Positions 42,215-62,832 of a DNA stretch of 64,000 nucleotides are shown in pieces. The translations under genes were made by a program, and so were the position numbers. The DNA is from Caldilineaceae bacterium SB0661_bin_32. GTDB lineage: Bacteria > Chloroflexota > Anaerolineae > Caldilineales > Caldilineaceae. Positions within the stretch are counted from its first letter, which is position 1. The number at the start of each line of letters is the position of its first letter. The DNA is taken from assembly GCA_009841235.1 (NCBI GenBank), contig VXMH01000028.1, positions 62,001 to 126,000 of the forward strand, in the 5' to 3' direction. The notes beneath the pieces are model-generated. The model ran no database searches. It was not told the DNA's origin and worked only from the letters and a program-made list of their open reading frames with translations.

Positions 42215-42774
42215 GTTCCGTTGATATTTCGGGAAGGCCGCTCAGAATTCAGCAAGAACGGAAAGCCGGCAGGTCTGATAGGGATTCTTCTCGCCTGAAT
42301 GTTGTGATAAACAGAACCAATTGATCCGCGAAGTCACGCGAAGGGTCGCGAAGAACACCTTTTTGTCCGCGGAGGACGCGGAGAACAGCAAAGGCGTATC
42401 GGATTTTCTGTGCGCAGCTGCGCGGCCTTGCGCGGATAGGCAGTTTGCTCCCGCGAACTGCTTTTCTAACAGACGTCAACGAGCTCTAAACAGATAACTC
42501 CCGGAATTCAGGGGATATGCCAACAGCTATGAAACGGTGGGATATCCAGGGGTATCCTGATGTCTGAAAAAGCGCTAAGGGCGGCTCTGGTGCGGTCGGT
42601 TGTATTTCACGCTTTGGCATGAAAGCCGCTCTTGAAACCAGTCCTGGAAGAGAAACTCCTGGTCTACCTTATTGGTTCTACGGATAAGCCGGCCTCGTTG
42701 GCTCGGTCACACTGTGGGAACATAACTTTAACGCCACCGCTCTTCTTTGTGTCCTGCCTTTTGGCTGGGATTGG
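42215..42774. other. Gap at the left edge of the defence island
   Basis: No gene is seen. Bases 42322-42380 hold repeated cgcgaag units (ccgcgaagtcacgcgaag) followed by cgcggaggacgcggag. These resemble intergenic repeats that I know from many environmental bacteria. The GC-rich, transporter-like sequence ends here and the less GC-rich defence genes begin. Confidence 0.5.
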
Positions 42775-44258: not shown

Positions 44259-44282
44259 ATCCGAAATCTCTCGTTTTTAGAT

Positions 44283-44334
44283 TTGACATACCCGTATACA
44301 GGAATTATACTTATATATCGAACGTTCGGGTATG
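44283..44334 (+). promoter_or_regulatory. Promoter of the CBASS operon with overlapping inverted-repeat operator
   Basis: A consensus TTGACA (44283-44288), 17 bases and TATACT (44306-44311) form a near-perfect sigma-70 promoter facing the CD-NTase gene. Half-sites catacccg (44287-44294) and cgggtatg (44327-44334) are exact reverse complements whose centres are 40 bp apart. They flank the -10 and overlap the -35. A 10-bp palindrome cgaacgttcg (44319-44328) lies between. A minus-strand TATAAT (44304-44309) may be the -10 of capH. A leader of about 230 bases precedes the CD-NTase start. Confidence 0.7.
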
Positions 44335-44554
44335 CCATCCTGGGTCCTATACTACTGCCCAATTTCAGCAATTGCAAGGAGTTTAGTAGATCAGGGACAG
44401 GCTGGTGGACTCACTCCAACCTAGCTGCATCGGGGTTCTATCGCGGGACCTGCGCATAGCAGACCGAAATTCGCATACGGCGTACCAGTCGTAGCAAAGG
44501 AAATTTGAAATGAATGCAGGAGGAACTGGCACAGGCGCGGGAGGGGAAATCTAA

Positions 44555-45526: not shown

Positions 45527-45532
45527 CCAAAT

Positions 45533-46036
45533 ATGACGAACACGTTCACTACCAGCACCACTTTCACTAGGACAAATGCGGAACATCTTGCTTCGAAGGT
45601 GGTGTCGGATCTCCGAGGCATGAAGGCCTACTATTATCGGCCGGATGAATCCCTGATATGGGACTACTATGAAGAGTTGGCCGAACTCCTCTCTGACGGC
45701 TATGTGGCAAGTGTGGAATATGGCTTCAAGCGAAATGGGCAGAGAGTCGTTACGCTGTCCTACGAGATTCGAACGGACGGTTCGCTCGCTGATGGGAAGT
45801 CTGGAGGTGTTTTCGCGAGGGCGGACATATCGGGAACTACGTGGTTCTCCTTCCTAGAGTACAGCAGGAAGTGGAATTCCCTGTCTTCCGGGGCTCAACA
45901 GGAGATCAAAGCGAACCTTCCAATCCAACGTAGTTATGGCCAGGCACCCCAAGACGGCAGCGGCTACTGGGTTACAGACCGGAGTTACTCCTCACAAGGT
46001 GTAGGTACACAGCGCCGTACTTTCCGTCCCTACTAG
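45533..46036 (+). CDS. cap7: Bacterial HORMA domain protein (Cap7-like)
   Basis: A 167-residue protein that matches the bacterial HORMA family. It has LASKVVSDLRGMKAYYYRPDE near the N terminus, EELAELLSDGYVASVEYGF, and the conserved end GYWVTDRSYSSQGVGTQRRTFRPY. In type III CBASS, HORMA proteins bind a closure peptide and then activate the CD-NTase; the AAA+ partner reverses this. It is six bases after the CD-NTase gene and ten before the ATPase gene. Only one HORMA gene is present, as in the one-HORMA subtype. Confidence 0.9.
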   Translation: MTNTFTTSTTFTRTNAEHLASKVVSDLRGMKAYYYRPDESLIWDYYEELAELLSDGYVASVEYGFKRNGQRVVTLSYEIRTDGSLADGKSGGVFARADISGTTWFSFLEYSRKWNSLSSGAQQEIKANLPIQRSYGQAPQDGSGYWVTDRSYSSQGVGTQRRTFRPY

Positions 46037-46046
46037 GTGATTCCCT

Positions 46047-46982
46047 ATGACCTCATTGGACCTGTTTGACGACGTAAAGGAGCTGCCTGACACGGATGCG
46101 GCTCAACAGTTTGCCCGGCTGGTTGGACTAGATCGTTTGAAAGAACTCCTGCTGAAGGAGGTACGCCTCCTGCTCGTTCCAGGACTTCTCGAACAATGGA
46201 GTATGGATAGGCACGGCAGTGTGTTGCCATGTGTAGAGGACTTCAATCGGAGACCGCCGCTGTTAGTGTTTTCTGGAGATGTGGGCACTGGAAAGACAAC
46301 CCTTGCTAACAGTTTCGGTGATCCTATTGCACGAGGGGGAGACATAGCAAAGGTTACAGTTCTTCGTCTGAGCCTCATCACTCGTGGCAGAGGAGCTGTC
46401 GGCGAGATGACCCGTTTAATTTCGCAAGCATTCGATGAAGTGGGTGCATTGGCTCGGAAGGGGGTCAACGCCAACGGTAATCCCTCTTCCGCGGTCGTAT
46501 TCGTGATAGATGAGGCTGACGCGCTCGCAGAGACGCGGGCCACTGAACAAATGCACCACGAGGATCGAGCGGGAGTCAATGCCCTTATCAGGGGCATAGA
46601 TCAGCTCACACAGGAGCGTTTGCCTGCCCTGGTGGTACTTTGCACAAATCGTCCCGAATCGCTTGATCCGGCAGTCCTGCGTCGGGCGGCAGTACATTAT
46701 GAATTCAAGCGGCCAAGCAAAGAGCAGAGGGAATCGCTCTTACGCGAGGCTTTCGTGAATGTCTTCAGCGACAGCCAATACCGTGAATTGGCAAGACTGA
46801 CCGGGTCAAATGGAAGAGATTACGGCTATACCTTTTCTGATGTGACCCAGCGCTTCATACCTAGCATTGTCCGCGACGCATTCCCAGATAAAGAAGTGAC
46901 CTTTGAACTCGCCCTATCAGTACTTGAACAAGTAGAGCCCACCCAGCCGTTTGGCATCACAGATGGTGTACGGAAATTATGA
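46047..46982 (+). CDS. cap6: TRIP13/Pch2-like AAA+ ATPase (Cap6-like)
   Basis: A 311-residue AAA+ remodeller. The Walker A is SGDVGTGKTTLANSFG (about residue 75), the Walker B VVFVIDEADALAE (about 152), the sensor region VVLCTNRPESLDPAVLRRA with the arginine finger, and a C-terminal lid. In CBASS such hexamers unfold HORMA proteins and hold the alarm off. The short N-terminal part before the AAA+ core is likely the HORMA adaptor. A good aggtga site precedes the ATG, and the stop overlaps the effector start by four bases. Confidence 0.9.
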   Translation: MTSLDLFDDVKELPDTDAAQQFARLVGLDRLKELLLKEVRLLLVPGLLEQWSMDRHGSVLPCVEDFNRRPPLLVFSGDVGTGKTTLANSFGDPIARGGDIAKVTVLRLSLITRGRGAVGEMTRLISQAFDEVGALARKGVNANGNPSSAVVFVIDEADALAETRATEQMHHEDRAGVNALIRGIDQLTQERLPALVVLCTNRPESLDPAVLRRAAVHYEFKRPSKEQRESLLREAFVNVFSDSQYRELARLTGSNGRDYGYTFSDVTQRFIPSIVRDAFPDKEVTFELALSVLEQVEPTQPFGITDGVRKL

Positions 46983-48433
46983 CAAAACGACTAAGCGCAA
47001 GCGGTGCCCGCATCAGAGGCGACGACTATCAGCATCTGTTCGCATGGCTTCAGGTGATCAGGGCAATTCAGGTAGAGAGTGGCATCACCGAAATCGGAAT
47101 AGAAGATCCCGAAGCAGGCAATGCAGATGACGTTACTGTCTACACGGAGGACCAAAAACACGAATACTATCAAGTAAAGTCTTCAGTCGATGCACGAGAG
47201 ACCATCGGATTAGAATGGCTCATGAAGCCGAGCAGAGCAGGTGGGCCAAGCGTAGTCCAGGGGTTCCACAGACTGTGGGCGGATGGCCCGAAGCAATGTA
47301 AACCAAAGTTATTCCTGGTCACTAACCGCCTCGCCACAGATGGAGATCCGATCTTGAAAATGAGAGACGGGCGCGATGGTACTGTCGTACGTTCCTTGAA
47401 ACGCGCACGCCCTAAGTCAAACGCTGGCATTGCGCGCAAGACACTCGCTGAACATCTCCAGGTTTGTGAGAAAGAGGTGCTATTCTTTCTTGAGAACCTT
47501 TGTTTTAAACTCGGTAAGACCCATAACGACTGGATAGAGATGGCGATACCATATATGTTCGCAGTAGGTCTCCGCCATGATGAAGATGCGATTTCTCAAG
47601 GTATAGGAATCGTGCGAGGCTGGGTAACCGAAGGCGTGAGGAGGCTCACCACCGCCGAATTGCGTCAAACGGTAGAGCCACTAAATCGCTCTAGCGAACT
47701 TCCGGCAGCTTCGCTTCTTGTTCAGGCCATTGACCGGGACCCCATGCCGGAGGCCGCTACGATTGCTCTTGACTGGGCCAGTCTGTTCCCAGGCAGTGAG
47801 CCAAGAGTTCGCCGTCAGCCATCGGACCAATCGCTGTGGAACGACCGTTTCCGGCCAGAACTCCAAAAAGCAGCGAAGGATTTAAGAGCCCTGGGACACA
47901 ACAATGTTCTCGTCCGGGGGTACATGCGGTTACCTACATGGTTTGCTACAGGAGTCGAGTTGGGCAAAACTGCTGACTTTCAGGTTACGTCCTTTCAGGA
48001 TCAGGCACCTTGGTCATCAAAAGGAGCGTTATCTGCCATCGCTATCGAGCGCATCGATACAGGCCTGGGAAATGGCGAAGATCTCGCCATAGGGATTGCG
48101 TTGGCATTTGACCTCTCGACAGATGTGCTGGCATACCTTCACGAACAACAAATCAATGTCGGTAGATATGTATGTCTCCGTCCTGCAGGCGGTGCAAATA
48201 ACCAGGCAATCCGCAACGCCGCTGAGGCTAGACAATGGGCTTATGCGGTACGGGACTTGATTCGACGTCTCGTTCAGGAATATAGACCCAGCCGAATTCA
48301 TCTCTTCTTGGCGGGGCCGCGTGGAGCGATACTCCTACTAGGCCACCTGTGGGACCGTATGCCAGACACACAGCTCTACGAGGACCTCGGTTCCACCAGA
48401 GGGTATAGCCCTTCGTACCTGATTCCGAACTGA
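46979..48433 (+). CDS. cap4: Cap4-like effector: nuclease domain plus SAVED domain
   Basis: A 484-residue predicted second-messenger-activated DNA endonuclease. The N terminus (GDDYQHLFAWLQVIRAI) matches the DUF4297 nuclease family. Catalytic residues of a PD-(D/E)xK type are seen as DDVTVYTEDQKHEYYQVKS, with Asp50/Asp51 and Gln65-Val-Lys67. The C-terminal 200 residues match SAVED, with the end RIHLFLAGPRGAILLLGHLW and a final TQLYEDLGSTRGYSPSYLIPN. SAVED binds cyclic oligonucleotides and triggers oligomerisation. It completes the operon; a nuclease-SAVED effector with a HORMA/TRIP13 pair is less usual than NucC in the well-studied type III examples. Confidence 0.9.
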   Translation: MTKRLSASGARIRGDDYQHLFAWLQVIRAIQVESGITEIGIEDPEAGNADDVTVYTEDQKHEYYQVKSSVDARETIGLEWLMKPSRAGGPSVVQGFHRLWADGPKQCKPKLFLVTNRLATDGDPILKMRDGRDGTVVRSLKRARPKSNAGIARKTLAEHLQVCEKEVLFFLENLCFKLGKTHNDWIEMAIPYMFAVGLRHDEDAISQGIGIVRGWVTEGVRRLTTAELRQTVEPLNRSSELPAASLLVQAIDRDPMPEAATIALDWASLFPGSEPRVRRQPSDQSLWNDRFRPELQKAAKDLRALGHNNVLVRGYMRLPTWFATGVELGKTADFQVTSFQDQAPWSSKGALSAIAIERIDTGLGNGEDLAIGIALAFDLSTDVLAYLHEQQINVGRYVCLRPAGGANNQAIRNAAEARQWAYAVRDLIRRLVQEYRPSRIHLFLAGPRGAILLLGHLWDRMPDTQLYEDLGSTRGYSPSYLIPN

Positions 48434-49139
48434 GGAACCGCGTATGAGACAGTACGATAACGATAGAGCATCAGGACTCCCGACAGTGGGCGACACTTGG
48501 CCCCTAAAGCATCGGGGTTCCGTCGTCGTTTCAAGGGCTCTGCTTCGGCAAGATCGGACACTTATCCGATGTGCCTGCAGCCGCTGGACAGCTTAGACTG
48601 TTCGAGGGTCAGGGAGGGCCGGTAGCGGCTGATGCACCCTCCGCGGCCGTGCTTGAGGACTGAACAGATCTGTAGTCTACATTGATCTGGATGCGGGAGC
48701 GCGGGAAAAGCTTCAGGTTTTGGCCCACTCCCAGCCCCTGGCCGATTATCAGTTCGTTCACGTAACCAGACCGTTGCTTCATTCGTTCCCATTCAAACGC
48801 AGTACAAGCACGTCAAGCGCTGCGCATGCATAATGCCTATAGGGTACCCCTTACCCGTTTTAGAGCCTTAGAACACTGTGAGAGCAGTCGAAATTTCCTG
48901 ATCCGGCTGAAGCTGGTGCGTTTTGCCCGATCTACATTTTTGCCCAGATTAGGCGAATTTCTGCGTTTTCAACCCGTTTTCCGAAAGTCCAACCGCACTG
49001 GAGGCGTTCTAAGAACCGTTTTCGATGCTTCAGGCGTTCTGATACCTTACAATTTTTTTGGCGCGCTGTTGGCGGTGGTCCTGTCGCACTCCAGTCGTAG
49101 GCCCTATGAGTGGCGGTCCACAACGTCGGCGCGCTCACC
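48434..49139. other. Gap with no supported gene
   Basis: Short open frames are present but lack ribosome sites and resemble no family. The sequence seems like decayed accessory DNA between the CBASS operon and a broken recombinase. Confidence 0.5.
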
Positions 49140-49640
49140 GCGCCTCTAGGCGCGTTCCAAGCCTATCTTCTCGAACGCGCCGGCAATGGCGTCGGCCTCT
49201 CGTCGTTGCGCTTTCGAGGAAACACGCGCAGCTGCGCGCAAGCGCGGTTTTATCGATGTTGCGCTCTGCCGGCTGACCGTGCTCCGATCAAGAACGGATA
49301 CGGGCTCCCAGACCGTCTATCTAACGCCGCCGGCTGTGCGGTCGTTGATCACGATCCGGCCAGTCGAGGTCAAGAGGTCGGCGTCGATCTTCGGGCTTTC
49401 TCCCTCTGCGGTTTCACGACGCATCAAGGCGGCGGCCGTCGCCGCTCTGAGGTCGAGTTACTCTGGTCACAGCAGGCGGGTGGGGATGGCAAGGCACATG
49501 GCCGCTGGCCGGTGCGCCTACGCATGAGATCATGGCACAAGGGCGCTGGAAGACTGTCGGCGTGGTCGAAACCTAAACGCGGGGAGAGAGAGCGGGACGG
49601 GCGTGCAGGTAGCTCTCCTGACGGTGCCCGGTGCGGCTGA
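49140..49640 (+). pseudogene. Decayed tyrosine recombinase/integrase
   Basis: Pieces of a phage-type integrase are spread over different frames. AAARKRGFIDVALC leads to VYLTPPAVRSL, then IFGLSPSAVSRRIKAA and SGHSRRVGMARHMA (the catalytic H-x-x-R box). After a frameshift THEIMAQGRWKTVGVVET follows, where the GRWK region precedes the catalytic tyrosine, and a stop replaces the expected tyrosine. The N-terminal domain is not clear. The remnant lies between the two defence modules and suggests past integration. Confidence 0.72.
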
Positions 49641-49697
49641 AAATCCCTTTTAATTTTACACGGGCAGGTGTCATTAAGTAGACTGGGCACCAAAGAA

Positions 49698-49733
49698 AAA
49701 GAGCGCCCACACCGCCAGTGTTTAGCGCTCTTT
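49698..49733. terminator. Perfect 9-bp hairpin, possible bidirectional terminator
   Basis: Arms aaagagcgc (49698-49706) and gcgctcttt (49725-49733) enclose 18 bases. The A-rich left side and T-rich right side fit intrinsic terminators in both directions. Confidence 0.55.
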
Positions 49734-49874
49734 AAGTGAACCGGCCGCGTTAGCGGGCGTGGAGTTGTCAATATAGTGGCAGACAAAGGTGTTTGTAAAT
49801 TAGGGTTCTGTGTGAATCCGCCGGTGGTGTGGGCGCTCCTGATGGCCGCGAAATGCAGCAAGGGGGTAGCTGAT

Positions 49875-50474
49875 ATGAGTTGGTCGAGGTTGAAAGAATT
49901 TTTCCAAACTAATTGGAAATGGATTATTTCTATGGTATCGGGTGTTATCTTGGAACCTGTCATAGAGCGGTTTGTGTTGTCTATTTTTTCCTCACTTTTT
50001 GAAGTGGGGCCATTGAATTCGGCGACACTGCGATTCTTGCTGTTTGCAGCGGCAGCATGTGGAATAACCGGAGTCGTTGTATTTGTGGTTGTTCCTGCTC
50101 TTGTAAGGGTGGCCGACTGGCTTTTTCGTCCAGCGCTTGTCGGTTCAAAGCCTCGCAGATTTTATAGTTTGCTTCCCGAAGTGAAGTCGTGTTTGGATGT
50201 CTTAGAGAAGGATTACGAATTTGAAGCCGCTACCCTAGGCAGAAGCGACGGGGTGACTGCGCCTCCATTTGACTCTTATGTAAGGTACGCAGAGTTGAGG
50301 AGTCGGTTGGGGCGGTTGTTCTTGAAGCTTGAAAAATTGGGCGTTCCTGTTCCTGATTCTATTCAGATAGACTCGCTTGGAGATCTCATCGACATGGTTA
50401 TGTATCTTACTCAGTTGAAGAATTACATGTCTGCCCGCGATCTAAACGCTGCCCGGGAAATAGTTCCACCGTAG
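49875..50474 (+). CDS. Hypothetical membrane protein with two helices
   Basis: A 199-residue protein of unknown family. A helix lies at WIISMVSGVILEPVIERFVL, a second at FLLFAAAACGITGVVVFVVV, and a soluble tail of about 110 residues follows (DVLEKDYEFEAATL ... LRSRLGRLFLKLEKLGVPVP). I start it at ATG 49875, after aagggggt; the frame is open to 49776 but that part looks non-coding. It is clearly less GC-rich than its neighbours, so it was probably acquired separately. Two-helix proteins are common defence effectors, but no link can be shown. Confidence 0.65.
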   Translation: MSWSRLKEFFQTNWKWIISMVSGVILEPVIERFVLSIFSSLFEVGPLNSATLRFLLFAAAACGITGVVVFVVVPALVRVADWLFRPALVGSKPRRFYSLLPEVKSCLDVLEKDYEFEAATLGRSDGVTAPPFDSYVRYAELRSRLGRLFLKLEKLGVPVPDSIQIDSLGDLIDMVMYLTQLKNYMSARDLNAAREIVPP

Positions 50475-51059
50475 ACGTCTCTGACGTCTTGGTGCATGCT
50501 GAGTTGGCAGGCCTGGACGCCCAGGGCAGTCTCTGTCAAAGACTAGCTTCTTATCTGGGGATAGATAGGCCGGTGGTACCTACTGATGACGGCAGACCGC
50601 TCGCTTTGCGATCAGTGCACAACGCATCCGTCTGGATGCACCTTATTTTTCCCGTTTCGTGGTCTAGTCATTGGGGCCAACCATACACTACCTCGGAATT
50701 TCGTTCTTTGAGGATAGACTACATCCTCAAAATGCTATAACAATTAGATGCGCCTATCCTGGTCTTTGACTTAGTACGCTTGGATTCGTATATTTGTATG
50801 TGAATTCAGCTGATCTTTCTATGTAGCGAGGTCAGTAAAATAGTCTTCGGAAAAATCAGGATCCTCATCATAGAATTGGCTGCCCACTTGTAGGTAGCCA
50901 AGGATAACGACTAACATTGGATCGAAACGCTCAAAATTGTCTGCCCACCGCGGCGGGCGCCTGTTCAGGTTCAGGCCCCGCAAGTGAACGAATAGATCAA
51001 GAACAGCAGCAACTGGCCCGTTGGTAATCCGTCAAGTAGGACGGCCAGTGGCAAGGAAA
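50475..51059. other. Gap holding the left direct repeat
   Basis: An 83-codon frame at 50489-50740 has no ribosome site and includes the repeat at 50624-50671, so I do not call it a gene. The rest is AT-rich sequence without recognisable features. Confidence 0.45.
50624..50671. repeat. Left imperfect direct repeat flanking the helicase/methylase/ATPase module
   Basis: The stretch cgcatccgtctggatgcacc and the next 28 bases match 60348-60395 (cgcatccgtttggatgcacc onward) at roughly 80 percent, mostly with C/T differences. The two copies enclose the three-gene module. Confidence 0.55.
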
Positions 51060-54000
51060 ATGACCAAAAAAATGGCTGAACATCCCCTGGCAGCACAAGA
51101 AGGCAATCGGATTACTCTGACGGGACACTTCGACGTGTCCGTCATATTGGAAGATGTGCGTCCCCTGGGCGCTAATGGGGCCGCAGGGTACGAGTGCCGT
51201 GTTCGTTTGCCTGACGGTACGCTCGAGGAGGCGGTCATCTCTCCAGATGAGGTAGCCGCGATTCTCGGTCCGGGAGAGATGGAGGTGTCGCGGCCTGCAG
51301 ATGCAGAACGCCTGCGTCTCTTGGTGGAATCCGCCCGAATCCGTCTCGCTTACGCCTACGACCGGCAGTTTGCGGTCAGTTTGTCCGGCATTCGCACTCT
51401 GCCTCATCAGATCGAAGCCGTCTACATGAAGATGCTGCCGCAGCCGCGGCTGCGATTTCTGCTTGCCGACGATCCCGGCGCTGGCAAGACAATTATGGCG
51501 GGCCTGCTGATCAAGGAGCTCAAGCTGCGAGAAGCCATCGACCGGTGCCTCATTCTTGTTCCGGCACCCCTGACGATTCAGTGGCAGGATGAGTTACTGC
51601 GATTCTTCAACGAGCCGTTTCAAATCGTCCATTCAGCGAACGACCAGCAACAGTTACTGAACCTTTGGGAGCGGGAGTCGCTCGTCATTTCGTCCATCGA
51701 TTACGCCAAGCGGGACGATGTCCGCGAGCGTGTGTGGCAGCAGCGGTGGGATCTCGTCATTATTGACGAAGCCCACAAGTGCAGCGCCTATACCAAGAGC
51801 TCGGCCGGGCGAGATGACGAAGTCGACCGTACCAAACGATATCAACTGGCGGAACGGCTCTCAGAACAGTGCGATAACCTGCTTCTCCTGACCGCGACGC
51901 CCCACCACGGGGACGACGACCGGTTCGCCCACTTCATCCGCCTGCTCGACCGCGACTTGTTTCCGGAGCCGCACCGGTTTAGCGAGGCCGCTGGTCGAGT
52001 CCGTCGTGAGGTATTGCAACTCGGGTACGACAGCCCTTGGTCGCTCCGGCGCCTGAAGGAAGATCTGAAGGATATGAGCGGCCGCCGCCTGTTTCCAGAC
52101 CGGCATGTTCAAACGGTCAGCTTTAACCTTGGGCCGGAGGAATACACAATCTACAAAGCTGTAACCGCCTACATCAACGAATACCTGCCTCAGGCGACGG
52201 GGCGTCGCAAGAATAGCGTTGCTCTTGCACGCACGGTTTTCCAGCGCCGCCTTGCGAGTTCGACCCATGCGATCTACGAATCGCTGCGACGGCGGCAGAA
52301 AAAACTAAAGGATCTGCTCCGCGAACTCGAAAGTCTTTCACCGTCTCAGCGGTCGCGGAGGCTCGCGCAATTGCAAGGCCGACTAACGGACACCGAGCAG
52401 GATGAAGACGATCTGGATGAAACAGCGAGGGATGGACTCATCGACGAGGCGACGACGGCGGCCGAGTTGGACCAGCTACGAGTCGAGCTTGCCGAGCTTG
52501 CCGAGTTGGTAGCAAGAGTGGGACGTGTCAGGGAAAACGGACGCGATTCGAAGCTGGTTGCCTTGCGCGAATGCGTGCAGAGGTCGGAGTTCGACGAATT
52601 GAAGGACGGACGAGGCAAACTCCTCGTCTTCACCGAACACCGAGACACGCTCGATTACCTGCGCGAACACTTCGAGGCGTGGGGCTATTCGACGTGCCAG
52701 ATTCATGGTGGAATGAACCCGCGGGAGCGAAAGCGGGCCCAAGAGGACTTCCGGACAAGCAGCCAGATCTGCGTGGCCACTGAGGCAGCTGGGGAAGGTA
52801 TCAACCTTCAATTCTGTCGCCTGATGATCAATTACGATCTGCCTTGGAATCCGACCCGCCTCGAACAGCGCCTGGGCCGGATCCATCGGATCGGACAGAC
52901 ACGCGACGTCTACGCGTTCAACTTCGTGGCGACGTCGTCGGAGGATGGCCAGCCGGTCATCGAGGGCCGCATCCTCGAACGGCTGCTGAGCAAGTTGGAA
53001 CGAATGCGTGACGCGCTCGGCGACCGCGTGTTTGACGTGGTCGGCGAAGTGCTCTCGCTGAACAAGATCAACCTCCCTGACATGCTCCGCGAGGTGGCTT
53101 ACGAGCCGAAACGTCTGGACGATTACCTTGACATGATCGACCGCATTGACCCCGATCTCCTCGGCCGCTACGAGGAAGCAACGGGAATCGCGCTGGCGCG
53201 TGGGCACGTGGACTTCTCGGCTTTCGCTCAGGCCAACCTTGAGGCCGAAGAGCGGCGGCTCATGCCGCGCTATGTTCAATCCCACTTCCTGAGTGCCGCA
53301 AAGGCTGTGGGTCTCCGCGTGGAGGAAAGAGCTGACGGGCTTTGGCGGGTAGAGCACGTGCTCTCCGACCTCCGCTCCGAGCGCCTCTCCGCGGTCCGGC
53401 GCCTGGGCGCACCGGCCGCGGGTTATCGGAAACTGACGTTCTACAAGGAGCACCTCGAGCAGGATCAACACCTCGATGCCGTTCTGCTTGGGCCCGGCCA
53501 TCCCCTCTACGCAGCGGTCGATGAGAAACTGAATGAACTCTTGGTTGATATTGTGGGAAAGGCTGCCGTATACGTGGACTCGATGACCTCTGCGCCATAC
53601 CGCCTTCACTTTTACGAAATCTCGGTACGAGGCAGGACGACCAAGGACGAACCTTCGACCATTCATGCCGAACTTACAGCCGTCCGGGAGGAATTAGGCA
53701 AACACGTGGCCGAAGCTGAACGGTTTGAGCTGGTTCCCGCAGATATTCTGATCGACCTCCCAGCCCACCCGCATCCCCCCGAAACACTTTCCGAATTTGA
53801 CTACGGCCCCGTTAGCGACTACGTCAAGACAACCTTACAGATGGATCGCCGACGCGATGCGCAGTCCGAGCGCAGTCGCTACGCGGACGTGGCGCGCGAC
53901 TATCTCCAGCAGTCATTCCACGCCCGGGTTCGGGCAGCGCAGGACCGCGTGATGCGGTTGCGAGCTCGAAAGCAAAAGGAGTCAGGGGTGGCCCTGGCTC

Positions 54001-54617
54001 TCCAGCGGGCGGAACAGGACCTGACCGATCTTGAACGCACACAGCGGGAACGTCTCTCCGGTATAAAACGGCTTCGATTGGCCCGCCATGGTCCAGTGAA
54101 CCACGTTGCAAGTTGTCTAGTACTGCCCCCCGACACGGCCATCGATCAGTTTCCGGAACTAGCCGAAGAGCAGGACGTGGGGTTGAAGCGCCGTGTTGAG
54201 CTTGCTGCAGAGGACATCGTCGTCGCCTATGAAGAATCAAGGAATCGCGAATGCCAACGCGTCGGTCACGAAAAAATCGGCTTTGACATCCGAAGCTTGG
54301 CACACCCGGACCCGCAGACAGGCTATCGCGACGAGGTGGACGGCGTGCGACGCATTGAGGTTAAAGGTCGGAAACAGGGACAGCCCATAAGGTTGACCAA
54401 GAACGAATGGTACACGGCGCAACAACTGGGCGACACCTACTGGCTCTACGTAGTGTGGGACCCTCTCGACAACCCGGACGCTACCCCGATCATGATCCGG
54501 AACCCTGCCAGGTGCCTGGATTACGCAAAGAAAGAGGTCGTCGTCGCCCGTTACTACGATGTTCCCGCGAACGCGGTCGAACAGGCAGCGCTTGGCCAGA
54601 GGGAGGATATGGCGTGA
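51060..54617 (+). CDS. SNF2-family helicase with C-terminal DUF3883-like domain
   Basis: About 1185 residues. The helicase core has RTLPHQIEAVYMKML (Q-motif region), the Walker A LLADDPGAGKTIMAGLL, the DEAH box DLVIIDEAHKCSAYT, and the second RecA domain with TEAAGEGINLQFC and QRLGRIHRIGQ. A coiled region (residues about 410-480) and a long middle part follow. The C-terminal 110 residues (RRIEVKGRKQGQPIRLTKNEW) match DUF3883, a nuclease-like fold. The start may be ATG 51060, ATG 51072 or TTG 51021. It is coupled to a methyltransferase gene by a GTGA overlap. Similar large SNF2 proteins occur in DISARM-like and other predicted anti-phage modules. Confidence 0.87.
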   Translation: MTKKMAEHPLAAQEGNRITLTGHFDVSVILEDVRPLGANGAAGYECRVRLPDGTLEEAVISPDEVAAILGPGEMEVSRPADAERLRLLVESARIRLAYAYDRQFAVSLSGIRTLPHQIEAVYMKMLPQPRLRFLLADDPGAGKTIMAGLLIKELKLREAIDRCLILVPAPLTIQWQDELLRFFNEPFQIVHSANDQQQLLNLWERESLVISSIDYAKRDDVRERVWQQRWDLVIIDEAHKCSAYTKSSAGRDDEVDRTKRYQLAERLSEQCDNLLLLTATPHHGDDDRFAHFIRLLDRDLFPEPHRFSEAAGRVRREVLQLGYDSPWSLRRLKEDLKDMSGRRLFPDRHVQTVSFNLGPEEYTIYKAVTAYINEYLPQATGRRKNSVALARTVFQRRLASSTHAIYESLRRRQKKLKDLLRELESLSPSQRSRRLAQLQGRLTDTEQDEDDLDETARDGLIDEATTAAELDQLRVELAELAELVARVGRVRENGRDSKLVALRECVQRSEFDELKDGRGKLLVFTEHRDTLDYLREHFEAWGYSTCQIHGGMNPRERKRAQEDFRTSSQICVATEAAGEGINLQFCRLMINYDLPWNPTRLEQRLGRIHRIGQTRDVYAFNFVATSSEDGQPVIEGRILERLLSKLERMRDALGDRVFDVVGEVLSLNKINLPDMLREVAYEPKRLDDYLDMIDRIDPDLLGRYEEATGIALARGHVDFSAFAQANLEAEERRLMPRYVQSHFLSAAKAVGLRVEERADGLWRVEHVLSDLRSERLSAVRRLGAPAAGYRKLTFYKEHLEQDQHLDAVLLGPGHPLYAAVDEKLNELLVDIVGKAAVYVDSMTSAPYRLHFYEISVRGRTTKDEPSTIHAELTAVREELGKHVAEAERFELVPADILIDLPAHPHPPETLSEFDYGPVSDYVKTTLQMDRRRDAQSERSRYADVARDYLQQSFHARVRAAQDRVMRLRARKQKESGVALALQRAEQDLTDLERTQRERLSGIKRLRLARHGPVNHVASCLVLPPDTAIDQFPELAEEQDVGLKRRVELAAEDIVVAYEESRNRECQRVGHEKIGFDIRSLAHPDPQTGYRDEVDGVRRIEVKGRKQGQPIRLTKNEWYTAQQLGDTYWLYVVWDPLDNPDATPIMIRNPARCLDYAKKEVVVARYYDVPANAVEQAALGQREDMA

Positions 54618-57421
54618 CCGAAAACGACCACCGATTAATCGAGGACTACCTGCCACTTGACAAGCTCAACGCCATCGCGTCGAAGGAAAAGCTGCATCCT
54701 CGACGATACGTGGAACTGGTTCACTACTGGCCCGCGCGCCGTCCGATTACCGCCTGCCGGGCGGCCATCTATTCCGCGCTCGTACCAGCGCCACGCACCG
54801 AAAATGAACGCGAAGATGCCGCAGCCTTCGTTGCCGAACTGGCCGCCTACAAAGTCCATCCCGAAAAGGTCTCTGAAGCGTGTGAAGGAATCAAGATGCT
54901 GCACAGTGGGCAAGCACCCAAAGTGCTGGACTTGTTTGCAGGAGGTGGCGCGATTCCGCTAGAAGCTGCCCGGCTTGGGTGCGAAAGTCATGCCGTCGAC
55001 TACAACCCGGTCGCGCACTTGATCGAGCTATGTACGCTGGTCTACCCACAGACCTTTGGCTTGGGCTTGGCAGACGATTTCGAACGATGGAGCGACCTGA
55101 TTCTCGACCGGATGAAAGACGAGATAGGGGATCTGTATCCTTCCATCGATCTTCCGCAGGCTGATGACGTGTTACACCAGGCTGATCTCTTTGGTTTAGA
55201 CAGTCTGACTTCCTCACGTCAAGCCGCCCCTGTGGCGTACATCTGGGCACGCACTGTCCCATGCCGGCGCCCCGGCTGCCACGCACCTGTGCCGTTGGTA
55301 CGACAGGCTTGGCTACGCAAAAAAAACGGTGCCATTGCCGCAGTACCTAGGATCGCAGACGGAAAGCGCTTGGTGTGGAATATTGTTTCAGGCAGCTCTC
55401 CCGAAGCAGTTTCGCAACAGACAGAGCAAACCGGCTCAGGGCAAGCGGTATGCGTGTCCTGCAACACCCCTGCCCCCTCCGATTACGTCAAGGAAATGGC
55501 GGTCGGGGGACGGATGGGAGAATCGCTAGCGGCGGTCGTAGCTGCACTGCCGCCGAAACAGCCTCACGGAAATAGACGACAAAAGATTTATCTAGGACCA
55601 AATTCAATACATCTGCTTGATGACAGTGCGTACCGTCGTCGACTAGAGAAACTGCTCGCTGATACGAAACTCGCTCCTTTACTCGAACGGATGAACACGG
55701 CTGATTCGACTACCGTGGCTGGACGCGGCTATGGCATTTCGCACTGGCAGCATCTTTTCACACCTCGACAACTTCTTGTCCTCTTTACCTTCATAAAGCA
55801 AATTCGCCGTGCGCATACCGAGATGCTCGCCGAAGGCATGCCCGAGGACCGAGCGAGAGCGTTGGCAACCTTCTTCGGGATGGCCTTCGGTCGCGTTGTC
55901 AATTCGTTCAACATGTTTACTCGGTGGGAGCCTCGCGTACAGCGAACTATGGGAGCCATTGGTGACCGTCAAGCGTTAAAGATGGTCTACGACTTCTCTG
56001 AGCTAAATCCTCTAGCCGAGACGCAGGGATGCCTAGCTTTTGCTCTTGATCGCGAAGCATTTTGCATAAGGGAGCTTGCGAAGGTCGGACGACCGTCAGT
56101 CGTGACCCGCGGCAACGCTGAGAAGCTCTTTTACGACGACGAGACGTTTGATGCAGTCATCACCGACCCGCCATACTATAGTAGCATCTACTACGCCGAC
56201 CTTTCTGCGTTTTTCTACGTCTGGCTGAAGCGGATCGTCGGCGATCTTTACCCGGAGCACTTCGCCCTTTCGTCCCCGCCGAAGCGGCGCGAGGCCGTCG
56301 CCCAGCCCAGCGAGCATGACGGGGACGCGGGCAAGGCGAAGGAGCACTACGAGCGTTTGATGCGCAACTCGCTGGCCGAGGCGCGCCGCGTCTTGAAACC
56401 GGGCGCGCCGCTGGTGTGCGTCTACGCACACCGCACTACCGAAGGTTGGGCAACTCTGATTCGCGCGCTCGTCGGGGCGGGCATGACAGTTACCGAGGCT
56501 TGGCCGGTACAGACCGAGTCGCCTACCAGGACAAATGCGCTCGGAGCCGCCGCGCTCTCAGACAGTATCTTCTTCGTCGCTCGCCGGCGCGAGCAGACCG
56601 GAACAGGCCAGTATGAAACCGACGTACAACCACAGTTGCACGAAATTGCCCGCGAGAGAGTCAGGACCTTATGGAATGGCGGAAAAGGGATCGGCGGGGC
56701 GGACCTGCTGATGGCGGCGGTCGGCGCCGGACTTCGGGCTTATACCCGATTCGCTCGGGTCGATTACGCAAATGGCGAGGAAGTGTCGGCGGAATCGTAC
56801 TTGCGTGATGTCGAAGGCGTGGTGCTCGACGTGATACTCGACGAAATATTCGGTCTGCGTGGCTCGGCGGTAGCCAACGTGGACTCGATCACACGGTTTT
56901 ACATCCTGTGGCGCTTCACCTACCGTGAGGCGAAAATCGAGGCAGGTGAAGCCTACGTGTTCTGCTACCCGCAGGGAGTTGAGATCGACGGACCCGATGG
57001 GTTGACCGGCAAAGCTCCGAAGCTCGTTGAGAAGTCCGGCAGCAAGTTCCGCGTGCGGACTTATACCGAGCGCGGCGATGATGAGGCGCTCGGCCTCGCT
57101 ACAAACAATGGGGCGGCACCGCTTATCGACGTACTGCACCGGTTGCTTTATCTGCTTGATGAACGGCCAGCGGATGTTCAAAGGTATCTGGAGATCGCAA
57201 ACCCGAATCATGAGCAACTTCGTTTGGTGACCCAAGCTCTCTCTGCCCCGGTCCTCGGGCGCGCAGAGGCCTCAAATGCAGGTTCGACCGCAGAGCGCGG
57301 CGCTCTTTCGCGACTGAATGCGAACTGGCGCAGCATCGTCGAGGGGGCCGCGTATGCGAATGAAGTTGAATCGCTGGTAACTGGGCAATTAGGCCTGTTT
57401 CGCGGAGACGATTCCAAATGA
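54614..57421 (+). CDS. DUF1156 zinc-ribbon adenine-specific DNA methyltransferase
   Basis: A 935-residue DNA methyltransferase. The SAM motif VLDLFAGGGAIPLEAARLG lies near residue 106, and the catalytic motif IV TDPPYYSSIYYADL near residue 518. Between them two cysteine pairs (CRRPGC around 216 and CVSC around 280) form the zinc ribbon. The C-terminal 250 residues are helical and of unknown role. The GTG start at 54614 overlaps the helicase stop and has gggagg upstream. It probably marks host DNA so that the helicase/ATPase partners spare it. The product also overlaps the ATPase gene by four bases, so all three are coupled. Confidence 0.88.
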   Translation: MTENDHRLIEDYLPLDKLNAIASKEKLHPRRYVELVHYWPARRPITACRAAIYSALVPAPRTENEREDAAAFVAELAAYKVHPEKVSEACEGIKMLHSGQAPKVLDLFAGGGAIPLEAARLGCESHAVDYNPVAHLIELCTLVYPQTFGLGLADDFERWSDLILDRMKDEIGDLYPSIDLPQADDVLHQADLFGLDSLTSSRQAAPVAYIWARTVPCRRPGCHAPVPLVRQAWLRKKNGAIAAVPRIADGKRLVWNIVSGSSPEAVSQQTEQTGSGQAVCVSCNTPAPSDYVKEMAVGGRMGESLAAVVAALPPKQPHGNRRQKIYLGPNSIHLLDDSAYRRRLEKLLADTKLAPLLERMNTADSTTVAGRGYGISHWQHLFTPRQLLVLFTFIKQIRRAHTEMLAEGMPEDRARALATFFGMAFGRVVNSFNMFTRWEPRVQRTMGAIGDRQALKMVYDFSELNPLAETQGCLAFALDREAFCIRELAKVGRPSVVTRGNAEKLFYDDETFDAVITDPPYYSSIYYADLSAFFYVWLKRIVGDLYPEHFALSSPPKRREAVAQPSEHDGDAGKAKEHYERLMRNSLAEARRVLKPGAPLVCVYAHRTTEGWATLIRALVGAGMTVTEAWPVQTESPTRTNALGAAALSDSIFFVARRREQTGTGQYETDVQPQLHEIARERVRTLWNGGKGIGGADLLMAAVGAGLRAYTRFARVDYANGEEVSAESYLRDVEGVVLDVILDEIFGLRGSAVANVDSITRFYILWRFTYREAKIEAGEAYVFCYPQGVEIDGPDGLTGKAPKLVEKSGSKFRVRTYTERGDDEALGLATNNGAAPLIDVLHRLLYLLDERPADVQRYLEIANPNHEQLRLVTQALSAPVLGRAEASNAGSTAERGALSRLNANWRSIVEGAAYANEVESLVTGQLGLFRGDDSK

Positions 57422-60309
57422 ATAACACGCCACAACCCTGGCTCCAGTGCGTCGAGTTGCACTCCGACGTGCTTTCCGACGACTTTTCCGAGGATGTCTT
57501 CGCTCTCGACCTCGGTGGTCTGTCCGACTATCTGATTGGACAGGACCTCGGGCAACCAGCAGCCGAGCTGCCGCGCGTACCGGCCGTGTATCGCGATGCA
57601 GAAAGCTTTTTTGCCGCGTCCTACATCACGAGCGGCCTCAAGTCCCTACTCGAAGATGTGCTCGGCCGGCTCTCCGGCTCGGAGGGAAACCGGGTGCTCA
57701 AGCTACTCACACCATTCGGTGGTGGCAAATCGCATACCCTGGCAGCATTGCTTCACGCCGCCCGGTCGCGCGCTGCACTCGACGCGTTGCCGGAAGCGGG
57801 CGGATTGCCGCGCCCTGATGCTGTGCGCGTCGCCGTGGTAGATGGGCAATTTTTCGACGCGACCAGTGGCAAACGTGCGCCGGGGGGAGATGTCGTCGCC
57901 AGGACTATCTGGGGTTGGATCGCGTGGGCCCTGGGCGGTCGGGAGGGCTACGAGTTGGTGCAAGCGCAGGACGAGGCGCGGGTGGCGCCCGGGGGCGACG
58001 CGCTCGTCGAATTACTTAAGGGGGGACCGAGCCTGATCCTGCTCGACGAGATTCTTGAGTATCTCATCAGCGCAGGCGGTATAAGTGTAGTGCAAACGAC
58101 CTTACGCGATGAGACGCTTTCCTTTCTCAAGCGGCTGACAGTAGCTGTCGGGAACGTGGACAACGCTGTGTTGGTGTACTCCCTGCAGTCCAGCAACCGC
58201 GAGTCGCTTGAATACACGGGCTTGCTTCATACTCTTGAGCATTTAGCCGCGCGCAAAGATCAAAGGCGCGAGCCGGTGGCGGATAACGAAATCCTCCACG
58301 TCATCCAGCGTCGCCTTCTTGCACGAACACCGGATGTATCCACAGCCACAGCCGCGGCGGACGTCTACGGCCAGGTTTACACGCAAATGCGACGTGCCTA
58401 TGCCCACGGCGAGTCGGAACGCCAACAGGCCGCGGAGGAGGGTGTGGTGCTGCGCGACCGAATCAAGGCATCCTATCCTTTCCACCCCGCGCTGATCGAT
58501 CTGATGCGTGAGCGCTGGGCCGCCATTCCCGAATTTCAGCGCACGCGCGGCGCTTTGCGTTTTCTCGCCTCCTGCTTGCGTGCTGCCCATAGCGCGGGCA
58601 ACTCGCGCCTGCTCCTGGGTTCCGGCGACGTTCCCATTCACGATGCCGAGGTACGCCTGGCCTTTCTCAAGGAAGTCGGCCAGCGGGAGGACTTCCAAGC
58701 CTGCTTAGAGCACGACTTCGTCGGTGCAAACGCCCGTTCCCGACTCATCGACAACCGGCGCGCCTTAGAAGTGACGACAGAGGCGGGCAGGCTGCCGGCT
58801 ACCCGCCTGGCTACCACCATACTGCTATATTCATTCGGCGGCCTGCGCCGCGGGGGTAGCGACACAAGTGACCTGCTCCCACCCGGGATTGGCGAGGCGG
58901 ACCTGCTCGGCGCGTGCATCGGGCCAGACCTAGACAGCACTACCATCCAAGCGTGCCTGAAGGAACTGAACGAGCAGTGCCTGTATCTGCACTTTGACGG
59001 TGTACGCTATTGCTTCAAAAAGGATCCTAACGTCACGTTGTTGGTCGAGCAGGAAGCCGAGGCTATCGCTCACGACGAGAGTCGCGTTCAGGCCCGCATC
59101 AGTCAGATGATAGAGGAACGTCTAGCCGGACAGCGTGCCATCGTCTGGCCCACGAAGTCCGGCGACGTGCCTGATCGGGAGACACAATTCCTCGTCGCCT
59201 ACTTGCCACTTGAGTTCGCGGCCCAACCGGCCGGGGAACAGCGGCGCAAGGCGCTCCAGATTCTCGAAAACTGCGGAAACCAACAACGAGTGTTTCGCAA
59301 CGGATTGGGGCTTGCTGTGCCAGCGGCCGACGAGGTTGAGGGGCTGCGCCGCGCAGTACGTTATCTCCTTGCGGTAGAGCGTGTTCAGGGGAACTGGCGT
59401 GAGTACAACCTGACAGGTGTCCAGAAAAGTCAGCTCAGGGAACGCGGCGCGACTGAAAAGACAACGATTGAATCTGCCCTGCTCAAACTCTACGGTGAAG
59501 TGTGGCTGCTAGGGTCAGGCCCGAATGGACTCGCGCTCGACACCGTCAGTATGGGTGGCCGGCCGCTTCAGACTACGCTCGATGAAAAGAAGCGTGCCCT
59601 CATTCACCAACGTCTGATGGAATTGCTGACAACTGTCCAACGCCGCGTGTTCGGAACGGTAGCCCCAGGCAAAATTCTTGAGTTGTTTGAGCTCGATGAG
59701 AGTGAAATCAGTCAGTCCGGCATCGCCACCCACACAGTGCTGACGGGTTTCTACGAATTCCTCGGCTTCCCGCGCCTGCTCTCGTCGGATGCTGTGCGCA
59801 AGGCCATCGTCCGTGGCGTGGAAACCGGACTGTTCGGCTATGTCATCGGCCGACCTACGCTTGGTGACGACGGCCGATACCAGATCGGCCGCAGCCGCGT
59901 CGCGTTCGAGCGTAGTGTCGCCGACGACGAGATTGACCTCGATTCGGGTTTCCTGATCGTGCCTACAGCATTGCCGGAAGAGCCACCGACAAACGACGAC
60001 CCACCATCCGGCAAGCCGCCGGAAGATGACACGCACGAGCGACAGGATGATGAAACGGCTGATGAATTCAAGACCGTTTCAACCCAGCCTGATCTTGCCG
60101 ATAGCCGCGAGATCGCCCTTTCTTTCACCGCTAACGAAGCTAACCTATACGAGGCTTGGAATGCCCTCGCCAATCTCGCAGACGTGACTGGGGAAGTTTC
60201 GATCAACGCCAGGGCGACATGCCCAGTTGACTACGACAAGGCGAAGCTGGAGAATGGTGTGTTCGAGCCGCTGCGGGAACTCGGACTGATCTATGACGAC
60301 AAGGGGTGA
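57418..60309 (+). CDS. DUF499 family ATPase
   Basis: A 963-residue ATPase. The Walker A is LLTPFGGGKSHTLAALLHA (about residue 98), and PSLILLDEILEYLISAGG is the Walker B region. FHPALIDLMRERWAAIPEFQRTRGALRFLASCL is typical of DUF499. The C terminus has an acidic, proline-rich spacer (PPTNDDPPSGKPPEDD) and a last globular part. DUF499 is often found beside DUF1156 methyltransferases and SNF2 helicases in predicted defence islands. It probably couples ATP hydrolysis to DNA translocation or assembly of the complex. Confidence 0.87.
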   Translation: MNNTPQPWLQCVELHSDVLSDDFSEDVFALDLGGLSDYLIGQDLGQPAAELPRVPAVYRDAESFFAASYITSGLKSLLEDVLGRLSGSEGNRVLKLLTPFGGGKSHTLAALLHAARSRAALDALPEAGGLPRPDAVRVAVVDGQFFDATSGKRAPGGDVVARTIWGWIAWALGGREGYELVQAQDEARVAPGGDALVELLKGGPSLILLDEILEYLISAGGISVVQTTLRDETLSFLKRLTVAVGNVDNAVLVYSLQSSNRESLEYTGLLHTLEHLAARKDQRREPVADNEILHVIQRRLLARTPDVSTATAAADVYGQVYTQMRRAYAHGESERQQAAEEGVVLRDRIKASYPFHPALIDLMRERWAAIPEFQRTRGALRFLASCLRAAHSAGNSRLLLGSGDVPIHDAEVRLAFLKEVGQREDFQACLEHDFVGANARSRLIDNRRALEVTTEAGRLPATRLATTILLYSFGGLRRGGSDTSDLLPPGIGEADLLGACIGPDLDSTTIQACLKELNEQCLYLHFDGVRYCFKKDPNVTLLVEQEAEAIAHDESRVQARISQMIEERLAGQRAIVWPTKSGDVPDRETQFLVAYLPLEFAAQPAGEQRRKALQILENCGNQQRVFRNGLGLAVPAADEVEGLRRAVRYLLAVERVQGNWREYNLTGVQKSQLRERGATEKTTIESALLKLYGEVWLLGSGPNGLALDTVSMGGRPLQTTLDEKKRALIHQRLMELLTTVQRRVFGTVAPGKILELFELDESEISQSGIATHTVLTGFYEFLGFPRLLSSDAVRKAIVRGVETGLFGYVIGRPTLGDDGRYQIGRSRVAFERSVADDEIDLDSGFLIVPTALPEEPPTNDDPPSGKPPEDDTHERQDDETADEFKTVSTQPDLADSREIALSFTANEANLYEAWNALANLADVTGEVSINARATCPVDYDKAKLENGVFEPLRELGLIYDDKG

Positions 60310-60345
60310 TGAGTGGTGACTTGTGCTCGCCCGAGCCGACCACTG

Positions 60346-60530
60346 GCCGCATCCGTTTGGATGCACCTTATCTCCCCCGTCCTGTGGTCCAAAGATTGGA
60401 ACTCACCCCACCTCTTCTGTCTCGATGCCTTACGCCAAGCGCTCAGCCAGGGTCGACCCAAAATCTTCAACACCGAACCAAGGCGCACAGCTTACAGCTG
60501 ATGCTTTCACGACCGCCTAATATCACGACA
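60346..60530 (+). pseudogene. IS3-family transposase remnant with right direct repeat
   Basis: One frame gives FCLDALRQALSQGRPKIFNT, and after a one-base shift NQGAQLTADAFTTA follows. Together they match the rve/integrase core of IS3 (orfB) transposases, where NTDQGxQFT is conserved. Only about 60 residues remain. The first 48 bases are the right copy of the direct repeat seen at 50624. Confidence 0.6.
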
Positions 60531-60842
60531 ATTCGCCGCAACCCGTGACTTCATGGCCGTCTCGTTTCCAAGCCTAACTATCTCGTCCAGATATTTACGC
60601 GCGCTCAACCTCTAAGGCTTCATGGCCAATCGCCTCCGGAGTTTCTAATGCCATCCCGTCGCGTTGCTTGGCGACTTCATTCAACGTCGCCCCCTTGGCT
60701 TAGGTATATAAGCCCCCATCTGCCCACCTCAGTAGTCCCCATAGTGTCGTCGCCGGGTCGGTCCATTGCAGGCTGCGTCCCGTTCACTTTCACAGACCTT
60801 TTTGCTTCCTCACAAGCAGGCAACCCTCTTACGCCAAGCAGA
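60531..60842. other. Gap at the right edge of the defence island
   Basis: No gene, RNA or clear regulatory site is seen. After it the sequence returns to the high-GC metabolic type. Confidence 0.45.
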
Positions 60843-61850: not shown

Positions 61851-62315
61851 TCACTCCTTTTCGTACCAGCCTGACCCGAAGTACAGCCCGTCATGGCGCA
61901 CCACCCACGTGTGCTTGCGCGTCACCTCGCCGGTATCCGGCTGGTCGTGGACATAGCTGACCCATTTGCCCACTTGGGTAGCGCTCAAAATGTCGTCACC
62001 GTAGAAGTAGCCGCTGGCATCTATCCGCAGCGCAGGGTCCCGCCCTATACTTTCGGGTCTGTAGTGAGCGATGGTGTACCCGTCTTCGCCGATAATGAAG
62101 ACATACCACTGCCCGTCCACGTTCTGGGCTGAACTGTAGTGGTCGATGGCTGCCTGGCGGCCTTCCTGGTTGTAGAGGCGGACGGCATCCTGCACGAGCG
62201 ACCGGGTGTAGGCTGCCGGTTCATTCCTGGTTGGGATGGCAACGCAACCGGCGACGAGGAGCGCAAGCGTAAAGACAGAAGATAGGGCAGCAGAACGATA
62301 CACGTAAGTCTCCAT
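61851..62315 (-). CDS. Cache-domain lipoprotein, copy 1
   Basis: A 154-residue exported protein. The signal ends at a lipobox LVAGC, so it should be lipid-anchored. The rest is a single small Cache domain (VQDAVRLYNQEGRQAAIDHY ... GQWYVFIIGEDGYTIAHYRPE and GKWVSYVHDQPDTGE). Such domains sense small molecules outside the cell, usually as parts of larger receptors; here it stands alone. It is a tandem duplicate of the next gene and the two are very similar along the whole length. Confidence 0.8.
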   Translation of the reverse strand: METYVYRSAALSSVFTLALLVAGCVAIPTRNEPAAYTRSLVQDAVRLYNQEGRQAAIDHYSSAQNVDGQWYVFIIGEDGYTIAHYRPESIGRDPALRIDASGYFYGDDILSATQVGKWVSYVHDQPDTGEVTRKHTWVVRHDGLYFGSGWYEKE

Positions 62316-62367
62316 TTTGAATGTCTTGGATTATCTACAATTGTGTACTTCCATTTGCGCGGCCAGA

Positions 62368-62832
62368 TCAGTTCTCTTCGTACCAGCCCGACCCGAAGAA
62401 CAGCCCGTCATGGCGTACGATCCACGCGTTCTTGCGCGTCTCCTCGCCGGTATCCGGGTTGTTGAAGACGTAGCTGACCCATTTGCCTGCCTCGGTAGCG
62501 CTCAGAATGTCGTCGCCATAGAAATAGCCGGTAACGTCGACGCGCAGCGCCGGGTCCCGCCCGATCATTTCGGGGTTGTGGTGCGCGACCGTGTATCCAT
62601 CTCCGCCGATTATGAAGACGTACCACTGCCCGTCTATGTTTTCGGGGGAACTGTAGTGGTCGATGGCTGCCTGGGGGCCTTCCTGGGTGTAAAGGCGGAC
62701 GGCATCCTGCACGAGCGCCTGGGTGTAGGCCGCCGGTTCGTTCTTGGTGGGGATGGCAACGCAACCGGCCATGAGGAACGCGAGTACGAGAACGGCAGAT
62801 AGTGAGGCGGAACGTAACATGCTTGTCTCCAT
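62368..62832 (-). CDS. Cache-domain lipoprotein, copy 2
   Basis: A 154-residue paralogue of the preceding protein with the same length and layout: lipobox LMAGC, the Cache segments QWYVFIIGGDGYTVAHHNPE and GKWVSYVFNNPDTGEE, and the end FFGSGWYEEN. The duplication is recent enough that the genes align without gaps. The 52-base gap between them has no hairpin. Confidence 0.8.
   Translation of the reverse strand: METSMLRSASLSAVLVLAFLMAGCVAIPTKNEPAAYTQALVQDAVRLYTQEGPQAAIDHYSSPENIDGQWYVFIIGGDGYTVAHHNPEMIGRDPALRVDVTGYFYGDDILSATEAGKWVSYVFNNPDTGEETRKNAWIVRHDGLFFGSGWYEEN

Follow-up and report, generated by a model that had tools for sequence, protein, structure and literature searches.

An intact Hma (type-1 BREX-related) module in a Caldilineaceae genome, with two hypervariable segments in its methyltransferase

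Introduction

Which defence system is formed by a helicase, a methyltransferase and an ATPase gene that overlap in a Caldilineaceae genome, and which of the three proteins would decide the DNA that is targeted? The genes lie in a window of 64,000 nucleotides, the whole stretch of DNA analysed here, from Caldilineaceae bacterium SB0661_bin_32. A first-pass annotation had described them as a compact defence module distinct from DISARM, of a kind whose association had merely been noted in defence-island surveys. The last point has to be revised, as the gene set has both a name and a detailed treatment. It was described in 2021 as the helicase-methylase-ATPase candidate system Hma, with 1,638 instances in 26 phyla (Payne et al. 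2021, PMC8565338). It was reinterpreted in 2026 as type-1 BREX-related (type-1 BR), with 2,446 taxa and a proposed mechanism resembling restriction-modification (RM) (Rakesh and Krishnan 2026, PMC12839542).

Identity and conservation of the module

The three genes are intact, lie in the same orientation on the forward strand and contain no internal stops. The first, hmaA (51060-54617), starts with ATG and encodes a SNF2/RapA-like helicase of 1185 aa with a C-terminal PD-(D/E)XK-like domain; an in-frame TTG is present upstream at 51021. The second, hmaB (54614-57421), encodes a DUF1156 amino-methyltransferase of 935 aa according to PADLOC and Pfam. Its homologues align from the GTG at 54614, which is taken as the start, and the mechanical ORF list begins the gene at 54407. 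The third, hmaC (57418-60309), starts with ATG and encodes a DUF499 AAA+ ATPase of 963 aa, again according to PADLOC and Pfam. The genes are joined by 4-bp stop/start overlaps, GTGA at 54614-54617 between hmaA and hmaB and ATGA at 57418-57421 between hmaB and hmaC.

Among the defence models of PADLOC, the best matches for the three proteins are HmaA, HmaB and HmaC. HmaA scores 629 bits (2.8e-189), against 441 bits (1.7e-132) with DrmD and 340 bits (1.2e-101) with BrxHI/HII. HmaB scores 360 bits (6.1e-108) and only 47 bits with the PglXI model, while HmaC scores 339 bits (2.3e-101) and has the other DUF499 model as its runner-up at 116 bits. By sequence, the module is an intact copy of the known system Hma, since renamed type-1 BR.

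The gene order is widely conserved. Eighty loci were found through HmaB, and neighbours were counted at those with enough flank: hmaA is upstream of hmaB in 58 of 63 loci and hmaC is downstream in 60 of 65. Both partners are present, with the hmaA-hmaB-hmaC order and strand kept, in 48 of 53 loci, and an inversion was never seen. This recurrence of the ordered triplet is far beyond chance. The first-pass annotation had remarked on the 4-bp overlaps, predicted a compact defence module and proposed a genome search for the same triplet, and in all these respects it is borne out. Tight spacing at both junctions, as in the window copy, is found at only 10 of the 53 loci; others have 1-8 kb between genes. 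In close relatives with otherwise similar modules, the genes inserted there are a Gabija pair (L035:6160-10001), an Avs5/SIR2-like gene (L036:7433-9907) and a pAgo-like gene (L041:12973-16338). Auxiliary genes inside BR systems are already known (PMC12839542).

Predicted functions of the three proteins

The domain assignments first made for these proteins hold: the helicase ends in DUF3883, the methyltransferase has both SAM and DPPY motifs, and DUF499 provides a second ATPase. The SNF2 helicase core of HmaA (51447-52895, forward strand; SNF2-rel_dom 1.1e-16, Helicase_C 1.8e-26) contains the Walker A motif DDPGAGKT, DEAH and QRLGRIHRIGQ. Its residues D137, K143, DEAH 236-239, R607 and R610 are invariant in 40/40 HmaA proteins. 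The AlphaFold model (pLDDT 83) matches RapA over residues 75-1024 (Z 22.3-25.7), with the nuclease-like domain lying beyond. Type-1 BR helicases are expected to have an N-terminal Tudor domain and an inactive REase; the model shows strands at residues 28-60 and is RapA-like up to residue 1024.

The C-terminal domain of HmaA matches NOV_C (PF13020; 1.7e-15), which we take to be the current name of DUF3883. This putative nuclease domain (54207-54479, forward strand) contains D1076...E1100-V-K1102, and its helix/strand order in the model is compatible with PD-(D/E)XK. D1076, E1100 and K1102 are invariant in all 40 HmaA proteins, so the helicase probably carries the effector nuclease as a fused domain, although NOV_C matches nuclease folds only distantly. 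Pfam detects no PLD (HKD) domain in HmaA. The 2026 account puts the share of type-1 BR helicases with a C-terminal REase at 79% and cites an experimental study that reports antiphage defence by a nuclease-helicase fusion of the HmaA type in Halomonas meridiana (PMC12839542). The first reading, that no classical restriction nuclease, PLD protein or drmABC genes are present, stands for the tested neighbours (CBASS and non-defence genes), among which none of these was found. As a statement that the module has no restriction nuclease it is too strong, given the invariant D...ExK of NOV_C.

HmaB matches DUF1156 (5.7e-13) and N6_N4_Mtase (6.2e-6). In its SAM-binding motif I, DLFAGGG (54929-54949, forward strand; residues 106-112), D106 and G110 are invariant, and F108 and G112 are kept in 39 of 40 proteins. 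Catalytic motif IV, DPPY (56165-56176, forward strand; residues 518-521), stands within TDPPYY. As DPPY is invariant in 40/40 proteins, the motif indicates amino (N6-adenine) methylation rather than m5C, the label that Payne et al. (2021, PMC8565338) give to HmaB. A putative four-cysteine zinc site (C217, C222, C280 and C283; region 55262-55462, forward strand) is kept in 34-40 of 40 HmaB proteins; the related BrxXI has a 4C Zn finger at the apex of its target-recognition (TRD) insert (PMC12839542).

HmaC matches DUF499 in Pfam (8.1e-31) and keeps the GGGK(S/T) and DE motifs across the HmaC alignment. Its predicted structure (pLDDT 84) has low pLDDT at residues 856-900, towards the C-terminus, where an RRM-like fold would be expected for type-1 BR. 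The top structural match is BrxC (Z 16.0, 413 residues, rmsd 4.1 A); the BrxC matches, with Z of 16.0 and 14.5, cover residues 6-534, and ORC/Cdc6 scores lower (Z about 12). In this model, HmaC carries a BrxC-like AAA+ core. It is without an N-terminal HEPN extension, in contrast to the Thermus copy.

Genomic context and spread

The module shares a variable chromosomal site (42200-60800), recognized by comparing flanks with same-genus genomes, with a type III CBASS operon. This operon (44555-48433, forward strand; cyclase, HORMA, TRIP13 and SAVED-PDDEXK effector, by Pfam and PADLOC) is an upstream neighbour and not part of Hma. It is complete in the window, and two same-genus genomes have it by itself at another location, 91-93% identical in DNA. 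In G003 and G007, both of the same genus, the site is almost empty, its flanks lying ~226 bp and ~172 bp apart, respectively. It was considered as a dedicated defence hotspot, an idea rejected since other same-genus genomes hold ABC peptide transporters, a GH116 cluster or a HerA-like gene there. Mobile-element remnants flanking the module, suggested by a stretch that is similar near 50640 and 60360, were likewise rejected: there is just a 24-bp match (23/24), and Pfam gives nothing at E up to 1.

Other features of the surroundings can be noted. Repeat-like intergenic sequence (GAAGTCACGCGAAGGG...) occupies 42200-42640 of the site and is also present in L143 and L145, including where the site is nearly empty. 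Between CBASS and hmaA is a 232-aa ORF (49776-50474), its product probably membrane-bound and without a family match; no homologue was found beside the other Hma loci examined. Beyond the module, at 61851-62832 on the reverse strand, are two similar Cache-domain ORFs. Several more copies stand at the same place in related genomes, and these ORFs are a locally repeated gene family.

The closest Hma relatives are in metagenome-assembled genomes (MAGs) named Gammaproteobacteria, Vicinamibacterales, Latescibacteria and Nitrospinota, with identities of 77-83% for HmaA, 68-76% for HmaB and 71-74% for HmaC. In its main segment, RpoB from the genome of the window shows 56-58% identity to that of four of the five closest-relative genomes, none being found in L035, and 61% to that of a Dehalococcoidia MAG, so the host is probably a member of Chloroflexota. 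Because relatives 68-83% identical belong to other phyla, the module is, by these comparisons, one that has moved horizontally between phyla. Viral contigs gave no match with the window HmaB as sole query and 29 loci with the HmaB family alignment.

Variable segments of HmaB

Two exchangeable hypervariable segments were mapped in HmaB, both on the forward strand and both between SAM motif I and DPPY motif IV. The first, V1 (55646-55738; residues ~345-375), has the allele MNTADSTTVAGRG-YG in the window; the second, V2 (55865-56137; residues ~418-508), was delimited with the help of nine paralogues from a same-genus genome. Comparisons with five close relatives give a pN of about 0.5 over residues 316-400 in four cases, against 0.06-0.26 over residues 1-315 and 401-880. 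Synonymous change is high throughout hmaB, with pS of 0.55-0.96.

Two V1 alleles are found among the close relatives: MNTADSTTVAGRG in the window and L036, and LQGKLRDQLP in L035, L037, L038 and L041. Sixteen HmaB sites unite the window and L036 against the rest, 15 of them within residues 348-375, while the 20 that unite the window with L035, its closest core relative, are all elsewhere. A co-varying specificity block was sought in HmaA and HmaC across six close relatives and none was found; the sites uniting the window and L036 number only four (HmaA) and three (HmaC) and are scattered. As V1 segregates without a matching block in either partner, this comparison points to HmaB as the sequence reader of the module. 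The V1 allele common to the window and L036 is identical at 38/51 nucleotides for 15/17 amino acids. Judged by this synonymous divergence, it is an old, maintained allele. The window's own genome also holds a second hmaA-hmaB pair (G000:C95:475-5603), with hmaB truncated by the contig end and a V1 type, AAGMGFRAPRYG, unlike that of the window copy.

Exchange of both segments can be followed within one chromosome. A same-genus genome (G016) holds about 16 HmaB (DUF1156 methyltransferase) homologues (L254-L267) on a single 5.06-Mb contig (C1), including two tandem pairs and three copies split into two frames. Most are without hmaA or hmaC within several kb, and homology between the loci is mostly limited to the gene itself. 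The nine full-length copies have cores 75-96% identical and diverge in two stretches, at window residues of about 330-385 and, immediately ahead of DPPY, about 414-510. Within these stretches (15-residue windows), some pairs are 0-7% identical and others 93-100%. For example, copies 259b, 263 and 267 are 98-99% identical in V2 and 36-44% in V1 at the DNA level, while copies 258, 259a and 259b are 99-100% identical in V1 and 39-46% in V2. The nine copies represent nine different V1 x V2 combinations. Because one segment can be up to 99-100% identical in DNA while the other is ~40% identical, this mosaic is the product of recombination. A third block, residues ~586-649, is common to different V1/V2 types (96% between 259a and 262a).

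The same V1 signatures (TTVAGRGYG, LGFRVQ.YG, NPRDFKTPNYG and SGVFN.P.YG) recur in distant phyla in enzymes with 25-35% identical cores. We compared 146 HmaB proteins, an uneven sample obtained by HmaB searches. As alignment is uncertain in variable stretches, V1 was taken by the conserved anchor YG...LF..RQ; V2 was taken from the alignment, with that uncertainty. The 24 V1 clusters require 71 changes on the core tree, against a minimum of 23 and a mean of 87.6 after shuffling. Of the 46 pairs whose cores are at least 80% identical, 35 differ in V1 and 10 have the same V1. V1 correlates with the core at 0.19, and its partial correlation with V2 given the core is 0.06. Across these 146 proteins, each of the two segments assorts without regard to the other or to the enzyme core. 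Among comparably variable segments, V1 shows the highest binomial excess and the lowest consistency index (0.32), the latter by a narrow margin (0.35 for residues 441-450). The idea that V1 is a unique outlier was dropped, since a decoupling from the core is seen for residues 417-491 as well, which fits V2. Such independent exchange is apparently new, as it is not described in the limited open-access literature searched.

Proposed mechanism and alternatives

We consider it likely that Hma acts as a one-operon RM-like defence module in which HmaB sets specificity through V1 and V2. On host DNA, HmaB would methylate an adenine within a specific motif, and HmaC, as a BrxC-like AAA+ ATPase, would assemble the complex on DNA. 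HmaA would translocate on unmarked DNA, with its C-terminal PD-(D/E)XK-like domain making the cut. By analogy with PglX in BREX, marking and attack would both take their specificity from HmaB. V1 and V2 would form two separable parts of the HmaB DNA-recognition domain, and specificity would change by swaps of short segments in HmaB, leaving HmaA and HmaC unchanged. The hmaABC genes of the window would confer phage defence. In type 3 BrxXI, which has a core methyltransferase architecture in common with BR enzymes, the TRD is inserted after strand 2 and before strand 3 of the core (PMC12839542). V1 and V2 lie in the matching place, between motifs I and IV, and are therefore most simply read as two parts of the surface that recognizes DNA. 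With somewhat less assurance, we favour the more general view that HmaB-family enzymes read DNA through two (possibly three) separable recombining segments and gain new specificities from few parts.

Variation in V1 and V2 might instead reflect selection by phage methyltransferase inhibitors at exposed loops and not DNA reading. High amino-acid divergence, such as that of V1 (pN about 0.5; surrounding core 0.06-0.26), is also expected from an arms race, and the phage protein Ocr is known to bind PglX (PMC11341690). We nevertheless think this quite unlikely: discrete V1 signatures recurring in distant phyla fit a finite set of DNA motifs rather than open-ended escape, and both segments lie where the enzyme family of HmaB has its TRD insert. 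A different objection concerns the effector. Like type 1 BREX, Hma could block replication of unmodified DNA without cutting, NOV_C being structural. The BrxC-like nature of HmaC and the weak characterization of NOV_C are in keeping with this, but the D...ExK is invariant in 40/40 HmaA proteins, and the frequency of C-terminal REases in type-1 BR helicases and the defence reported for such a fusion (PMC12839542) also favour cutting. Blocking without cutting is, as a result, unlikely.

We see only a slim chance that this copy is inactive or serves host regulation instead of defence. The genome is a draft of 122 contigs, and a same-genus genome has many orphan HmaB homologues; the window copy, however, has three intact frames with intact active sites and preserved stop/start overlaps, and adjoins a type III CBASS operon in a variable site. 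Divergent class 1 DISARM (drmD-drmMI) and a remnant of type 3 BREX are hardly credible as identities of the module. HmaA does match DrmD and BrxHI/HII, but its own model scores far higher, HmaB barely matches PglXI, drmA, drmB and drmC were not found nearby, and a search of the assembly yielded no PglZ. The original view that the mechanism is not that of DISARM therefore agrees with these results.

If the RM-like reading is true, V1 and V2, which are exchanged naturally, are the HmaB residues most likely to decide the DNA target. Copies with the same V1 or V2 should then have part of the motif in common, and V1/V2 type would predict the methylation motif. For example, the V1-dependent part of the motif of the window HmaB should be that of the Vicinamibacterales copy L036 and not that of L035. 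The analogy with PglX in BREX suggests that retargeting would need a change in HmaB alone. Many specificities could be built from few parts within one genome, and the G016 homologues would be a natural library for the motif code.

Comparison with known systems

The module has the same three proteins and gene set as Hma; swappable HmaB segments are not described in the passages searched of that report (PMC8565338). It resembles type-1 BR in its DUF499 ATPase, DUF1156 N6-methyltransferase and Swi2/Snf2 helicase with a C-terminal REase, and in having neither PglZ nor DUF3780 (PMC12839542). PglZ (PF08665) has no match in the window's assembly, which is 98.7% complete; no ORF lies between the hma genes, and the tested neighbours are not DUF3780. 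The window copy differs in having no HEPN fusion and no embedded accessory gene. Fast TRD divergence is noted for type-1 BR, and independent V1/V2 assortment is not reported in the parts of that paper searched (PMC12839542). Type-2 BR does not fit, as HmaA has no PLD (HKD) domain by Pfam and no DUF3780 gene is among the tested neighbours.

Type 3 BREX (BrxC, BrxXI, BrxHII) has a related ATPase, methyltransferase and helicase and a TRD insert inside the methyltransferase. The window module differs in being without PglZ, BrxF and BrxA and in the nuclease-like domain of its helicase, and filing it under type-3 BR or BREX was rejected because PglZ was not found in the assembly. Class 1 DISARM (DrmD, DrmMI) likewise places a SNF2 helicase beside an adenine-type methyltransferase, whereas the module has a DUF499 ATPase in place of drmA/drmB/drmC. 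This filing was rejected too, as drmA/B/C are not nearby and HmaA outscores DrmD. The closest parallel for the segments themselves is provided by TRD shuffling in HsdS of Type I RM and domain movement in Helicobacter pylori, where specificity segments recombine between homologous genes while the rest is conserved (PMC3983042, PMC3077401). In HmaB, both exchangeable segments lie inside a single methyltransferase chain, between motif I and DPPY, and not in a separate specificity subunit.
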